Positions 18,195 through 44,396 of a stretch of 64,000 bases of DNA are shown here, one piece after another. Both the position numbers and the translations under genes were made by a program. The notes beneath the pieces were generated by a model. It made no database searches, had not been told where the DNA came from, and saw nothing but the letters and a program-made list of their open reading frames with translations. The first letter of the stretch is position 1. Every line of letters begins with the position of its first letter. This DNA comes from Diacronema lutheri (taxonomy: Eukaryota; Haptophyta; Pavlovophyceae; Pavlovales; Pavlovaceae). The stretch lies in assembly GCA_019448385.1 (NCBI GenBank), contig JAGTXO010000040.1, positions 284,375-348,374 of the forward strand, written 5' to 3'.

Positions 18195-20789
18195 ATGGCG
18201 CCAAGATCGAAGCGCGGCCGGACGCGTCACGCGGTGTCTCACGAGGATGACGACGGCGCATGGCGTGACGACGACGCCTGCGCACTGCGCGCCGACGAGG
18301 CGCGCGAGGGCGAGGCCGCATTTACGCGCTATTACCGCGACGCGCAGCGCATCTGCCGCGACGCTGAGGATTGGCGCGCGCTGCTCGCGAGCCTGCGGAC
18401 GCCGCTGCCCGTCTCCTTCCGAGTGAGCCGCGTGGCAGCGCGCCAGCCGGAGGTGGCCGCCGCGCTGTCGATCGCTGAGCCGCTCCTCCGCACCTCGCAC
18501 CCGCTTGGCGCGCGCGGCTCGCGCACGGCGCCGCCGGCGCGCCGCTTTGCAAGCGTGCATGGGTTGGACGCGTGGCAGCTCGGCTGCGATGCGCGCGCGC
18601 TGCGGCAGGCGGCCAAGCACGCGCCCGAGTCGGCGCTCGCGGCGCTCGGGCGTTGGATCATCGAGCACAACGCCTCGGGCGTGCTCACGCGCCAGGAGCT
18701 CGTCTCCATGGTGCGGCGCGCCGCCGCGCGTAACGCCGCGCGCCGCTCCGCGCAGTGCTCCGCCCTTCACGCCGCGCGCCACCGCGCGCCGCGCGCCGCG
18801 CGCCGCGACAGATACCGGTGGCGTTGCTTGAGGTGCAACCGGGGCAGGCCGTGCTCGACTTGTGCGCCGCTCCCGGATCCAAGTCAACCCAAGCGCTCGA
18901 GGCGCTTCTGTCGCCGCCGCCGCCGGCCGCGCGCCTCAGCCGCGGCGCCGGCGGCGCGCACGCGGGCGTGCAGCCGGCCGACGGCTCGGCGCAGCCGAGG
19001 TCGGAGCTGGCGCTCGCGCGCGGTGGGTTGCTCGTCGCCAACGAGCTCGACGGCGAGCGAAGCCACACGCTCGCGAATCGTTGCGCAGCGCTCGGCGCGG
19101 CGTGCGCGGCGCTCGTCGTGACCGCACAGCGCGCACAGACGATGCCGCTCGCGAACGGCTGCGGCCAATTTGACCGCGTGATCTGCGACGTGCCGTGCTC
19201 GGGCGATGGCACCTTCCGCAAGTGCGTGCCGCGCGCCATGCCGCTGCGCGCTCGCGACCGCCTGGCGACGTCGCACTGTGGTGCAGTGGGAGGCCTTTCG
19301 ACTGTATATACGTCGTGCGCGCGCGCCGCGGCCGACGACGCGCCCTGTTTCCGCGCCACGGCGCGCGCGCCTCGGTGCGCAGGTACCCGGACAAGTGGTC
19401 GCACTACGAGCCATATATTGGGCGTACGCTCCACGCTCTTCAGCTCCAGATTGCGCTGCGCGGCGCGGCGTCGCTCGCTCCCGGCGGTCTCATCGCCTAC
19501 TCGACGTGCTCCCTCAACCCCCTCGAGAACGAGGCGGTCGTCGGCGCGCTTGTGAGGCGCGCACGCGCCGCGCCGCCTTCGCGCGCGCGCGCGCGCGCGT
19601 TGCGCATGCGCGCACCATCGTGGCGCTCGCCGCGCGCCTCGCTCCGCGCAGATCCGAGCGACGGGCGGCGCGCTCGAGCTCTTGGACGCGGCGAGGCGCC
19701 TCGACGGGCAGCTGGTCACGCGGCCGGGTCTGACGAGCTGGAAGGTTCTCGACGACGCGGACCAGCCTCTGCAGAGCCACGCGCTCGTGCGCGCTGCCGC
19801 CAGGCGCACGGGCTGCGCGCACGGCGCGCGCTACCGCGCGTCCATGTGGCCCGCGGACGCTGCTGGAAACGACCTCCGGCGGTGCGCGCGCACCGGGCGC
19901 GCGACACGCGACACTCGCGCGCGCGTGCGCCGCGACACACGCCTGCGCGCGATGCGCGCCCGCGCGTGCCGCGACACGTGCCTGCGCCCTCGAGCCGCCG
20001 CACACGCGGGCGCCCTCGGCCATGCGCGCATGTGCGTGCGCCTACCGCCAACTTTCTGCCTCAAGCCCACCCACCCACCCACCACCCGCCTTGGGCGGCT
20101 GACACATGTGGCGCTCTAATCCGAACCCTAACCCTAACCCTAACCCTAACCCTAACCCCTCGCGCAGATGCGTACGGCTACTGCCGCACGACAATGACAC
20201 TGGCGGGTTTTTTGTCGCGCTGCTGCGCAAGCGCGCGCCATGGCCGCCGCCTCGCGTCGCGCGGCGAGTGGTGCCGTCGTCGCCACCCTCACTGGAGCCG
20301 CATGTTCAGTCAGCGCTCCTTGTCGAGGGCGGCGCGGCGGTGCGCGCGCTTTCTCAGGCACAGCTCACTGACCTCCGGCTCGAGGCGCCCGCGCTCCGGC
20401 TGCTGCTCGACGCGCTGGGCGGGGGTGCGCTGGGCGAGCGCGGCTGGCTCGTGCTCTGTGAGCGGTCGTTGCGCGCCGTGGGCGCCGGGGCGCGTAGCGA
20501 GCGCGAGCACGCGCCGCGCAGGCTTTTCCTGTGCACCGCGCGGGCGGCGAGCATCGTCGGCGCGGCCCCCGAGCTGGCCGGTGGCGAGCGCCCTGCCGGC
20601 GTCGATCGGCCGCTACGTGCCGTTGCGATTGGCGCGTGCGTCGCCGTCCGCCGGCGCGTGCGCGCCCGGCCGCGGCGTGCGGGCGCAGCCAATGCTGGCG
20701 GTGGCGTTAAAGGGGGAAGCGCGCCGACCTCGGAGTGGCTGCTGACGCCTCTCGGCGCGCGCGTCGCCAGGGCTGAGCCTCCAGGCTGA
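18195..20789 (+). CDS. NSUN2: NSUN2/Trm4-like tRNA (cytosine-5) methyltransferase
   Basis: Five exons: 18195-18710, 18812-19221, 19383-19551, 19652-19881 and 20168-20789, giving 648 aa. The N-terminal FTRYYRDAQRIC and LPVSFRVSR match the NSUN2/Trm4 leader. The SAM-binding motif I is VLDLCAAPGSKSTQ. Both active-site cysteines are present, in VICDVPCSGDGTFRK and IAYSTCSLNP. The segment across the third junction (EAVVGAL/IRATGGALELLD) and DNDTGGFFVALLRK are family signatures and confirm the splicing. The enzyme methylates C48-50 and wobble positions of tRNAs, mainly in the nucleus and nucleolus. The C-terminal extension fits the variable NSUN2 tail. Intron 4 (19882-20167) contains a telomere-type repeat next to its 3' splice site. 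Confidence 0.93.
20126..20158 (+). repeat. Interstitial telomere-type repeat (CCCTAA)n in an intron
   Basis: Five perfect CCCTAA units plus CCC, preceded by degenerate copies from about 20117. It ends about 10 bp before the acceptor of NSUN2-like intron 4, so the CTAAC units sit exactly where a branch point is expected and the C/T content supplies a pyrimidine tract. Confidence 0.9.
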
Positions 20790-20952
20790 GACCTTTTCAG
20801 CTTTTTCTAATTATTCCTATTTCTTGAAATACGTTTTGCCTACCTTGATAGCTTGAATCTTCGACGTCCGCAGGATGGCCGCGTCCGCACCTGCCGGCGG
20901 CCAAGCGGCAGCCGAACATCACAATGCTTGACCGTGCGACGACGACTTGCCA

Positions 20953-21192
20953 ATGCTCGGTTTGGACGCGGACGCCGAAGCCGGGCAAGCGGCCTCACAG
21001 ACGTGCGCTTCGTCCGTCGCTGGCTTTTGGAAGCGGTCGGCGCCCTCCGCGCTAAACCCCAAAGGCGGGCGTGGGCGCGGGCAGAGCACGCTCGAGTACG
21101 TCGTGGCGGAGTGCAGGTGATACGCGAATTACATCGTGCCCGTCGTCGCGATCAACGCGCTTGTCATCGTCTTGCTCATCCTTCTGCTCTGA
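20953..21192 (+). CDS. Candidate small tail-anchored selenoprotein (in-frame TGA)
   Basis: A short gene found by reading through TGA. From the ATG at 20953 the frame gives 55 residues (acidic start MLGLDADAEA, GFWKRSAPSALNP, a Gly/Arg stretch, STLEYVVAECR), then TGA at 21118-21120, then YANYIVPVVAINAL plus a Val/Leu/Ile run to the final TGA at 21190-21192, 79 codons in all. Codon use is natural on both sides of the TGA. No intron can remove it, because no AG acceptor lies between the TGA and the hydrophobic segment. A SECIS-like structure follows 36 bp after the stop, so TGA is read as selenocysteine (residue 56), just before a C-terminal membrane anchor. An upstream ATG at 20875 shares the frame but meets another TGA at 20929; it is either a longer two-Sec form or 5' UTR. 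I do not recognise the family: SELENOK and SELENOS have the reverse order (TM first, Sec last). Confidence 0.6.
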
Positions 21193-21227
21193 CGTGCGCA
21201 TGTGCTGCACGGCTGTAGCGCGCTGAT

Positions 21228-21291
21228 GCGCCCGTGACCGTGCGCCTGCAAAAGCTGAGGTTCCGCTCAGAGCGGGCGCCCGTGATTGCGC
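21228..21291 (+). promoter_or_regulatory. SECIS-like element (type 2 geometry)
   Basis: This can be folded by hand. Helix I is GCGC 21228-21231 with 21288-21291. The non-Watson-Crick quartet is UGAC (21235-21238) against UGAU (21283-21286), placing tandem G.A pairs at 21236/21285 and 21237/21284. Helix II is 21239-21249 with 21272-21282, 11 pairs with one U.C mismatch and one G.U. Unpaired A's at 21250-21253 lie 12 nt after the quartet. The mini-stem CUGAG/CUCAG (21255-21259 with 21266-21270) is closed by a 6-nt loop. Quartet, spacing, unpaired AA and mini-stem all match the eukaryotic type 2 SECIS that recruits SBP2 and eEFSec. It sits in the 3' UTR of the preceding TGA-containing gene. Confidence 0.7.
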
Positions 21292-21354
21292 GTCCGTGTG
21301 CATGCATTGTAGTTTCACTAGTCATCCGTGCCAGACGCAACGGCGCCAGTTTCA

Positions 21355-21383
<29 letters not shown>
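21355..21383. repeat. 29-nt poly(G) tract at convergent 3' ends
   Basis: An uninterrupted run of 29 G on the + strand between the candidate selenoprotein 3' UTR and the end of the kinase gene on the other strand (its stop is at 21395). Confidence 0.9.
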
Positions 21384-21394: not shown

Positions 21395-22837
21395 TCACGC
21401 TGTCGCGCACGAGAGACCCTCCCTCTCCCCTTCCCTCCCCTCCCCGAGGAGCTCGGCCAGGAGCTCGGCCAGTCGCTCGGAGACGCGCCGAGCGTCCGGT
21501 CGCTCGCGCGCGTCGAAGGCGAGGCAGTCGCGCATGAGCGCACTGAGTGGCGCGGGCGTGTCGGCGGGCAGTGGCGCATGATCGAGCGGGCTCGTGCCCG
21601 AGGCGGCCGCGCGCATCATCTCCGCCTCGGCCAGGTTGGCGTACGGGAGGGCGCCGGCGGCGAGCTCGTACAGCAGCGCGCCGAAGCTGTACACGTCCGC
21701 CGCGCACCCGCAATGCACCGCCCCGTCCGCGCCAAGCAGCTCGGGCGCCATCCAGCCGGGCGTGCCGATGCCGAGAGAGTCTGACTCATTGGCGGGAAGC
21801 ACGCACGCGCTTCCAAAGTCACACAGGAGCGCGGAGGCGGCGGGCGCGGCGCGGCCGGTGGCGGGGTCCGCCGCGCTGAGCAACACGTTGGACGCCTTCA
21901 CGTCGCGATGCAGCACCGGTGGCTGCAGGCTGTGCATGTGCTCGAGCGCGGCGCACACGTTGAGCGCGCGCCGCACGTCGCGCGCCCATCGGCTGCGCGC
22001 GGGCTGCGCGGCCGGCACCGCTGGAGCTCGGCGCGCGTCGATGCGCTCGTCGCGGCCGACGCCGACGTCTCCGCCCGTGCCCACCGCGCGCCCCGCGTTG
22101 TGCACGTCGTCGTGGAGCGAGCCTCCGGCCGCCCACTGCAGCACGAGCATCCGCGGCGCGCGCGCGGTCGCGCCAAGGAAGCGAACAATGGAGCGGTGCG
22201 CGCCAAGCGAGCTGAGCATCAGCGCCTCCGCCGCGTGCGTCGCCTCGCCCTCCGCGTCCTCCGGAAACACCTTTGCGACGGCCTCCATGCCGCGCCAGGT
22301 TGCGCGCGCGCACCGCGCGTACGACGCGCGCGCGCGCAGCGGCTCGCCGAGCGTGACTTTGAGCGGGTCGATCAGGTGGCCACGAGCGGCGAGGGACTCG
22401 ACGAGAGACGAGGCGGGCGGCGGCGCGCCGCCGCGCGCGCGGCCGTCCGCGCTGGCGGCCGGCACTGCGTGCCGAACGCTCCACGGCGCGCGACGCGCGA
22501 GCGCGAGCGCGAGCGAGCGCGCAGCGCCGTACGACGCGTAGACGGCGGAGACGATTGCATACCGAGCACGCACCGACACCGAGCACCTCGCGCGCATCGC
22601 CTCGGCGCTCCGCCGCGCGTACACCTCTCGTGCGCGCGCGCCGAGCCAGCACGCCGTGGTGCGTGAGGCGCTCAGCCCGCGCCGGAGCCCGACGCCTGCC
22701 TTGGCCGTAATGCGCGGCGCATGACCCACGAGCGATGGCCTGGCCGATCGCACAGGCGAGCGCGGGACGCGCGAGATCGCCGGTGAGCGCACCGGCGAGG
22801 ACTGCCCGTCTCCCTGTCGTTCACGAGCGGTCTTCAT
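21395..22837 (-). CDS. TKL-like Ser/Thr protein kinase
   Basis: About 480 aa from the ATG at 22837. The kinase domain fills the C-terminal two thirds: beta-3 lysine in EAVAKVFPED, catalytic loop LHRDVKASNVLL, DFG in LLCDFGSACVLP, GTPGWMAPELL (APE), a DVYSFGALLYEL helix, and the late Arg in FDARERPDARRV. The DVYSFG motif and HRDVKASN favour the tyrosine-kinase-like group. The glycine loop is not a canonical GxGxxG. The N-terminal about 170 residues are Arg/Ser/Ala-rich with a moderately hydrophobic patch (IVSAVYASYGAARSLALALA) that might target an organelle. It diverges from the alpha/beta hydrolase gene with 46 bp between start codons. The substrate is unknown. Confidence 0.87.
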   Translation of the reverse strand: MKTARERQGDGQSSPVRSPAISRVPRSPVRSARPSLVGHAPRITAKAGVGLRRGLSASRTTACWLGARAREVYARRSAEAMRARCSVSVRARYAIVSAVYASYGAARSLALALARRAPWSVRHAVPAASADGRARGGAPPPASSLVESLAARGHLIDPLKVTLGEPLRARASYARCARATWRGMEAVAKVFPEDAEGEATHAAEALMLSSLGAHRSIVRFLGATARAPRMLVLQWAAGGSLHDDVHNAGRAVGTGGDVGVGRDERIDARRAPAVPAAQPARSRWARDVRRALNVCAALEHMHSLQPPVLHRDVKASNVLLSAADPATGRAAPAASALLCDFGSACVLPANESDSLGIGTPGWMAPELLGADGAVHCGCAADVYSFGALLYELAAGALPYANLAEAEMMRAAASGTSPLDHAPLPADTPAPLSALMRDCLAFDARERPDARRVSERLAELLAELLGEGREGEREGLSCATA

Positions 22838-22883
22838 CGATGACGACGTGAAACGGCAATGGCGTGAGGTGGAGCAGCGCAAA

Positions 22884-43532: not shown

Positions 43533-44396
43533 GCCGCTTTCTAAAAGGGTGTAGGGTGTAGGGTGTAGGATGCAAAACAAGCCCTCCCCACATTTGGGCC
43601 CGACGTCATTCCTTCTTCGAAGCCGTGACGTTACTCACATACGAGTACCTTTACTTAGTGTAGGATGTATCTATTCTCTAGGTATTTGCATAGTGTAGGG
43701 TGTAGGATAAGTACGGTTATGAAAGTCCCATAGGGGGGAGAAGGAATGACGCTGTGACGAAAGAAGGAATGACGTCGGGCCCAAATGTGGGGAGGGCTTG
43801 TTTTGCATCCTACACCCTACACCCTACACCCTTTTAGAAAGCGGCGGCGCCTCGGAGCATGGCGGCTCGACAGCATGGCGCCTCGACAGCATGGCGTCGT
43901 CCAGCGTGGCGTCCAGGATGGCGACTGCGCCCGGGCCGTGACGCCGCGACGTCGTTCGGCTGCGTCACGGAGGAGCGCCATCCGTGCGCCACGGAGGAGC
44001 GGCAGGACCACGACGCGGCGTGACGCTGGACGACGCCATGCTGTATAGGCGCCATGCTGTCGAGCCGCCATGCTCTGAGGCGCCGCCGCTTTTCAAAAGG
44101 GTGTAGGGTGTAGGGTGTAGGATGCAAAACAAGCCCTCCCCACATCTGGGCCCGACGTCATTCCTTCTTTCGTCACAGCGTCATTCCTTCACTCCCTGTA
44201 GGACTTTCGTAACCGTACTTATCCTACACCCTACACTATGCAAATACTTAGAGAATAGATACATCCTACACTAAGTAAAAGTACTCGTATGTGAGTAACG
44301 TCACGGCTTCGAAGAAGGAATGACGTCGGGCCCAAATGTGGGGAGGGCTTGTTTTGCATCCTACACCCTACACCCTACACCCTTTTAGAAAGCGGC
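43533..44396. mobile_element. Composite foldback element (two inverted TIR units)
   Basis: Two copies of a 312-313-bp unit, at 43533-43845 and 44085-44396, lie in opposite orientation. Each unit is itself bounded by about 85-bp terminal inverted repeats that begin GCCGCTTTC(T/C)AAAAGGGT and contain (GTGTAGG)n, the segment CAAGCCCTCCCCACAT and the motif GGGCCCGACGTCATTCC. The central about 145 bp of one copy is the reverse complement of the other with minor changes. The 239 bp between copies (43846-44084) is also inverted for about 60 bp at each side (units of GACAGCATGGCGCC), so the whole forms one palindrome of about 864 bp. It is much richer in AT than its surroundings and has no coding capacity. 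This is a non-autonomous MITE or foldback-type element; no clear target-site duplication was seen. Confidence 0.85.

Follow-up and report, generated by a model that had tools for sequence, protein, structure and literature searches.

Does a short reading frame interrupted by an in-frame TGA, in the nuclear genome of the haptophyte Diacronema lutheri, encode a selenoprotein held in a membrane by its C-terminal end? Selenoprotein genes are often missed in routine annotation because the codon for selenocysteine (Sec) is taken for a stop, and those encoding small membrane proteins are easily overlooked. The frame lies on the + strand of the window, by which we mean the whole 64,000-nucleotide stretch of DNA that was analysed and to which positions refer unless another locus is named. 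The GC content of the window is approximately 66–83% per 2 kb, and a value of 73.25% is given for the published assembly of D. lutheri NIVA-4/92 (PMC8379373). The candidate occupies a gap of approximately 600 bp between a + strand gene that ends at 20789, in which motifs of an NSUN-like methyltransferase were recognized by eye, and a convergent − strand gene (ORF 21395–22882) that by eye is kinase-like. The NSUN-like frame also holds five telomere-like CCCTAA units (20126–20155), read as Asn-Pro repeats, and a run of 29 G residues is found at 21355–21383, between the candidate SECIS element and the kinase-like gene. An AT-rich spacer of low GC (20790–20874, + strand) separates the upstream gene from the candidate; the 100 nt preceding 20875 have a GC content of 0.43, compared to 0.51–0.76 for five known starts, and the spacer has a probable role as promoter or 5' UTR.

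Read from the ATG at 20875, the frame consists of 18 codons, TGA 20929–20931, 62 codons, TGA 21118–21120, 23 codons, and a stop TGA at 21190–21192. Translation from the internal ATG at 20953 bears out the 79-codon frame (20953–21189) described in the first-pass annotation, with TGA 21118–21120 as codon 56. The explanation that we consider highly probable is that this is a small nuclear haptophyte selenoprotein gene, in which a type II SECIS element 42 nt past the stop recodes UGA 21118 as Sec, and which gives rise to a short tail-anchored product carrying a Cys-Arg-Sec motif at the cytosolic surface of the membrane and probably serving a redox or cofactor role.

We examined the coding signal on the two sides of the TGA by use of a codon table of 2,301 codons, compiled from 11 stretches of the same genome (three gene-like ORFs of the window and eight exons of known selenoproteins). 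Based on codon log-odds, no other of the six frames scores as high as the candidate frame on either side of TGA 21118. The main coding part ahead of the Sec codon, which runs from the weak-context ATG at 20953 to 21117, scored +5.9 bits, a value equalled by 101 of 20,000 dinucleotide shuffles; the part past the TGA scored +20.1 bits, equalled by none of 20,000 shuffles. The GC content at codon positions 1/2/3 was 0.65/0.62/0.82 from ATG 20953 to the TGA versus 0.61/0.17/0.87 after it, the third-position values fitting the pattern of the training stretches (0.81–0.91). When followed in steps of 60 nt, the signal was positive from approximately 21015, clear from approximately 21060, and strongest around and after the TGA, and it ceased at the terminating TGA (21190–21192); there was little coding signal in the N-terminal part. 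Synonymous codon choice taken alone gave +0.8 and −1.0 bits, which is neutral, yet here too the frame was the best of six. The score past TGA 21118 owes largely to amino-acid make-up. An antisense frame (21052–21318) scored below the candidate in both segments flanking the TGA and was set aside.

These data suggest that the in-frame TGA at 21118–21120 is read as Sec, in the context Glu-Cys-Arg-Sec-Tyr, which contains a CxU motif. The possibility that an intron skips this codon was considered and rejected: despite an AG|GT donor-like site that overlaps the TGA, no AG occurs anywhere in 21121–21216. Any intron removing this TGA has to end at an AG located after it, and the single one upstream of the SECIS element, at 21217, already lies past the stop codon; a GT-AG intron thus cannot skip TGA 21118 and leave the anchor intact. 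Nor does the tail contain an in-frame ATG, and with no intron to rescue it, a translated tail must therefore come through TGA 21118.

The 23 codons that follow the TGA (21121–21189) encode a segment predicted to serve as a transmembrane tail anchor running up to the stop codon. Its residues are nearly all hydrophobic, and the best 19-mer has a Kyte-Doolittle mean of 3.17. Taking this value, the candidate's own, as the threshold, such a tail is found at one stop among the 1,235 of the window on both strands (886 of which have the preceding 22 codons open), the runner-up reaching 2.22; 40 shuffled windows, with 28,413 stops between them, contain none. In the 105-residue reading that begins at ATG 20875, all 19-mers starting at residues 1–64 have means of at most 0.26, so that there is no N-terminal hydrophobic signal. 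A single-sequence AlphaFold model predicts a continuous helix over residues 69–104 of this reading; the mean pLDDT is 66 for residues 81–90, 86 for residues 91–100, and 94 for residues 101–105, compared to 58.6 for the whole and low values before residue 81, and only the final 15 or so residues, which are helical, are modelled with confidence. The C-terminal membrane anchor proposed earlier is thus backed by both hydropathy and a predicted terminal helix. The single C-terminal segment and the lack of an N-terminal signal support the prediction of a tail-anchored membrane protein, the tail of which may resemble those of Sec61-beta or phospholamban-like proteins. Elsewhere in the window, at approximately 43630–44300, two near-identical hydrophobic tails of 22 residues occur on opposite strands (with a stop at 43696 on the + strand and one near 44233 on the − strand), this arrangement indicating an inverted repeat.

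Type II SECIS elements are characterized by a UGA/GA quartet, a helix II of approximately 9–13 bp, unpaired AA at the apex of the helix, and a mini-stem above it. Each of these defining elements is present downstream of the candidate frame, as judged by sequence, fold, and covariance models. The core (21234–21286, + strand) was found by two covariance models, R1 and R2, and by a strict pattern, and contains in order G-UGAC-(11-nt arm)-AAAAG-(5-bp mini-stem, 6-nt loop)-A-(11-nt arm)-UGAU. The strands of the quartet are located at 21235–21238 and 21283–21286, helix II is formed by 21239–21249 with 21272–21282, the unpaired AAAA is at 21250–21253, and the mini-stem is formed by 21255–21259 with 21266–21270. 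In the MFE fold, the element extends to 21225–21294 through a helix I of 7 bp (21225–21231 with 21288–21294). The structure folded in the first-pass annotation stands as to its quartet, its unpaired A residues, its mini-stem, and its assignment to type II; in the 11-position helix II, 10 positions are paired and the other is a U.C mismatch.

The position and details of the element agree with those of known selenoprotein genes. The UGA of the SECIS is 114 nt from TGA 21118, 303 nt from TGA 20929, and 42 nt from the stop codon; known genes of this genome, as measured on genomic sequence, have Sec-to-SECIS distances of 70–631 nt (n = 8) and stop-to-SECIS distances of 34–148 nt (n = 9). When compared with the SECIS of a SELENOM gene of the same genome (L034, 875–927), all element lengths are equal (11-nt arms, five unpaired nucleotides starting with AAAA, a 5-bp mini-stem, a 6-nt loop, and one unpaired nucleotide), the candidate differing in the residue that precedes the quartet (G rather than A) and in a single U.C mismatch of helix II. 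A G at this position also precedes the quartet in two known SECIS elements of the genome (L031 and L032). In another lineage, that of Ostreococcus, the mini-stem of SECIS elements is described as long and the G preceding the quartet as conserved (PMC2375036), features that by this description the candidate shares. Both features are normal in algae.

We scored the candidate against SECIS elements of its own genome. The covariance model R1 was built from the SelM SECIS (L034) only, and with it the candidate ranked first of 116 matches in the window, at 20.1 bits (E 0.0078), the second scoring 19.0 bits. The model R2 was built from six SECIS elements of known families (L026, L027, L028, L029, L032, and L033), aligned through R1 and with the candidate left out; one of these elements, L032, belongs to a Sep15-like gene whose identified exon shows no Sec codon. 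Elements of a Sep15 gene (L048), which fell below threshold, and of a SelM gene (L051), for which the antisense strand matched too, were excluded from R2. MAFFT alignments of the SECIS elements (A1 and A2) were structurally wrong and were kept out of the models, and a third (A3) was also unused. With R2 the candidate ranked first of 35 in the window at 27.3 bits, with a rough E of 1.4e-4; the runners-up scored 23.1 bits, at a place without the 5' UGA strand, and 21.4 bits, and the best score in 79,001 bases of other regions was 19.0 bits. Among known elements, R2 gave 25.1 bits for the held-out SELENOK, 13.4 bits for the held-out Sep15, and 18.0 bits for the training member L028; the sensitivity of R2 is accordingly modest, as two real SECIS elements score just 18.0 and 13.4 bits.

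We also determined how often such an architecture occurs by chance. A looser detector proved too permissive, the score of the candidate being equalled 45 times in 19.2 Mb of shuffled sequence, or approximately 0.3 times per window, and it was therefore replaced by a strict pattern (R before UGA, helix II of 9–13 with at most one mismatch, AA at the apex, an apical part of 14–26 nt, a mini-stem of at least 4 bp, and GA). The settings of this pattern were chosen with the candidate and the known elements in view, and it is itself not very sensitive, giving hits in 3 of 10 known-gene regions. It matched one place in the window, the candidate, and none in 158,002 strand-bases of background; in shuffled sequence it gave 194 matches in 10,569 windows (1,352.8 Mb), for an expectation of 0.018 per window. 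When a helix I of at least 6 bp was required in addition, 33 shuffled matches were left, or 0.003 per window, the helix I of the candidate being 7 bp. The folding energy of the candidate has a z of −1.78 or −3.12, depending on the stretch taken, and does not discriminate, since nine stretches with known SECIS elements span −1.99 to +1.98. A search with the SECIS families of Rfam up to E 10 gave no match to the candidate. The same search missed seven of eight known SECIS elements of this genome, the eighth matching SECIS_1 at 22.9 bits versus a gathering score of 35, so the lack of an Rfam match to the candidate means little. Judged against SECIS elements of the same genome, a selenoprotein with a type II SECIS is well supported.

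The genome contains the factors that such a gene requires in trans, as far as these were looked for, in addition to the cis element and codon of the candidate. Nine tRNA-Sec genes (anticodon TCA) are arranged in tandem, 181–184 bp apart, at L035:4089–5639 (G000:C19:159090–160638, − strand), seven of them scoring 71.1 bits and two 67 bits. This is a high number for a eukaryote; for the diatom Fragilariopsis cylindrus, 11 tRNA-Sec predictions are reported, four of which were classed as candidates (PMC5330540). A gene for SepSecS was also found. Nine genes of known selenoprotein families have an in-frame TGA: two GPx, three Rdx (SelT/SelW-like), three Sep15/SelM, and one SELENOK; the Sec motifs expected of these families appear on translation. 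One more exon that is Sep15-like (L016/L032) was found, itself without a TGA. Taken together, the tRNA-Sec genes, SepSecS, and the known-family genes indicate that this genome decodes Sec.

SECIS elements were located 3' of known genes in L026, L027, L028, L029, L031, L032, L033, L034, and L044. A first detector had found them at two known-gene loci only (L012 and L017) within short flanks; with longer regions and a fold-based search, the element was found by program in seven of nine regions, that of L026 was found by eye, and that of SELENOK (L044) makes the ninth. The GPx element in L026 (1580–1628) has an apical loop without the usual AA, starting instead with TCAGA, and a long helix I, and is a possible variant SECIS of this lineage. 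The SelM-like gene L030 (G000:C76, around 321292–321504, − strand) encodes a selenoprotein with a long C-terminal extension that includes a hydrophobic segment; no SECIS was found within 700 nt of its stop, perhaps due to an intron or a wrongly assigned stop. The SELENOK gene (L044, 1426–1689, with its SECIS at 1750–1797) has a frame of 87 residues in which Sec is the third-last (GGUGS, then the stop), and lies below the Pfam cut-off. It was chosen by eye over L043, which scored higher (23.0 bits compared to 19.9 bits for L044) but whose translations contain no SELENOK-like product.

Three other explanations of the locus deny that the frame is a selenoprotein gene. That an ordinary short or non-coding stretch lies by chance beside a GC-rich hairpin resembling a SECIS is very unlikely. 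Hairpins are common in a GC-rich genome such as this, the loose detector returned about 0.3 equal scores per shuffled window, the strict pattern was set with the candidate in view, and there is no Rfam match; yet Rfam also misses most of the known SECIS elements of the genome, the strict architecture is expected only 0.018 times per window (0.003 times with the longer helix I), and R1 and R2, neither of which was trained on the candidate, both rank it first. The element, moreover, is on the right strand and 42 nt past a coding-like frame interrupted by a TGA. That the SECIS is real but serves another frame, the hydrophobic tail then being accidental, we regard as most improbable. One partner for such an arrangement would be the NSUN-like gene, which ends in a TGA (20787–20789) on the same strand approximately 445 nt before the SECIS, an unseen upstream exon being the other; but past 20787 the NSUN-like frame has just six codons before a TAA, a clear coding signature ahead of the SECIS is seen in the candidate frame only, and a tail of this kind was seen at no stop among 28,413 in the shuffled windows.

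Equally improbable is that the frame ends at TGA 21118 to give a soluble protein of 55 residues, with the tail made only by ordinary low-level readthrough and without selenium. TGA is the leakiest of the stop codons, but a SECIS element is in place, nine known-family genes of this genome have an in-frame TGA, and the signal for coding peaks in the region around and past the TGA itself. We retain the reading of the locus as a selenoprotein gene.

On this reading, the mRNA would carry the type II SECIS 42 nt past the stop codon, and binding of the SECIS, as in other eukaryotes, would result in the recoding of UGA 21118 to Sec by way of the genome's tRNA-Sec. The product would contain the sequence Glu-Cys-Arg-Sec-Tyr followed immediately by the tail anchor. 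It would be short, probably disordered, with its N-terminus in the cytosol, and held in the membrane by the C-terminal tail, such that the Cys-Arg-Sec motif would be found at the cytosolic surface, two to three residues ahead of the membrane. A cytosolic N-terminus is favoured because basic residues precede the anchor; by the positive-inside tendency, a basic flank favours the cytosolic side. C-x-U is the redox motif of Sep15, and the translation of L031, a member of the Sep15/SelM family in this genome, shows Cys-Lys-Sec. Based on position and motif, we infer a role in membrane-bound thiol/selenol redox chemistry or as a cofactor, in a setting like that of SELENOK and SELENOS and with the opposite domain order.

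We compared the candidate with known selenoproteins for possible membership in one of their families. Like the candidate, SELENOK is small, with one transmembrane segment, a Sec on the presumably cytosolic side, and a SECIS in the 3' UTR. In SELENOK (L044), however, Sec is near the C-terminus, in a tail that follows the membrane segment; in the candidate it is the anchor that is C-terminal, with Sec ahead of it, and there is no match to the SelK_SelG domain. SELENOS (VIMP) is also a single-span membrane selenoprotein, the Sec of which is reported to be penultimate (Sec188 of 189; PMC3628699); in the candidate it is at position 56 in the 79-residue form or 82 in the 105-residue form, according to the start, and there is no Selenoprotein_S match. 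The first-pass annotation had argued from domain order that the protein is neither SELENOK nor SELENOS, and we reach the same conclusion, as there is no Pfam match to SelK_SelG (PF10961) or Selenoprotein_S (PF06936) and a separate SELENOK gene is present in the genome. Selenoprotein_S was not found in the genome at E ≤ 0.1.

Searches of Pfam, PDB, viral contigs, and the genome itself gave no relative, the first three returning no match to the candidate. A homology search of its own genome (43,492,796 bases in 103 contigs) returned the candidate itself and three weak matches (E 0.045–0.11), none of which was accepted: in two, re-alignment gave just 12 matched residues, well before the Sec, and in the third (L004) the alignment around the Sec had 12 matches in 36 residues and a nine-residue gap. 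The candidate gene is not described among the matches listed, by title and abstract, for tail-anchored and membrane selenoproteins and for haptophyte selenoproteomes, and the word selenoprotein is absent from the D. lutheri genome paper. A published survey of algae lists 42 selenoprotein families, including MSP and 'Hypo' (PMC7539508). In our judgement, it is under these two names that a small membrane protein might have been recorded.

It is accordingly necessary to consider that the SECIS and Sec codon are real and that the gene is a diverged member of a recorded algal family, either MSP or a hypothetical selenoprotein. This overlaps with the main reading and denies only its newness, and we consider it rather unlikely. 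MSP of Ostreococcus, Chlamydomonas, and Dictyostelium is described as membrane-bound and as having two Sec residues (PMC2375036), and a distant MSP is conceivable for this reason; the candidate has two in-frame TGAs ahead of its stop as well as a hydrophobic tail, the first TGA being one that may be non-coding. MSP is, furthermore, reported to contain Sec in nearly all algae that have it (PMC7539508). On the other hand, the 2007 paper gives its detection as limited to Dictyostelium, Chlamydomonas, Volvox, and Ostreococcus (PMC2375036), and the order in which the bands of a gel are named (SPS, MSP, DI, Sep15) suggests that MSP is larger than the candidate. The comparison with MSP is by published description. 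The family may be undescribed, being set apart from SELENOK and SELENOS by domain and order.

If the gene is real, it adds a membrane selenoprotein with a position of Sec unlike those of SELENOK and SELENOS, and it would serve as a test case for how near a Sec codon may be to a membrane anchor and to a SECIS element. The genome itself looks useful for work on selenium: its tRNA-Sec genes form a tandem array of nine, and its SECIS elements, most of which go unrecognized by Rfam, could be used to train a lineage-specific finder.

The extent of the product at its N-terminal end bears on the number of Sec residues. The interval of 20875–21291 originally assigned to the gene contains the main frame, but that assignment overlooked the in-frame TGA at 20929–20931 and the lack of signal in 20875–20928. 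The ATG at 20875 (A at −3, G at +4) opens an optional extension of 18 codons (20875–20928) of doubtful coding status, with a log-odds of −8.4 bits and a third-position GC of 0.56, compared to 0.89–0.94 over the same span in five known genes. The TGA that follows could be a second Sec codon, in the context Sec-Pro-Cys, or part of a 5' UTR or intron. Because the ATG in better context leads into this TGA through a stretch without coding signal, the product may be either one of 79 amino acids from ATG 20953 or one of 105 amino acids with two Sec. If present in the mRNA, ATG 20875 would be reached first by a scanning ribosome.

The longer form raises the prospect, which we consider doubtful, of a new family in which one tail-anchored protein of 105 residues has two Sec residues, Sec-Pro-Cys near the N-terminus (TGA 20929) and Cys-Arg-Sec at the membrane (TGA 21118). 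These would form a membrane-tethered relay, the flexible N-terminal site exchanging with the membrane-side site; a single SECIS would decode both UGAs, and the third in-frame TGA, 42 nt from the SECIS, would terminate translation. By published description MSP, as a membrane protein with two Sec residues, resembles the candidate in this two-TGA form. An overlapping out-of-frame ATG at 20924 opens a frame of 43 codons (20924–21055), and would be a rival to the start at 20953 if the mRNA begins upstream.
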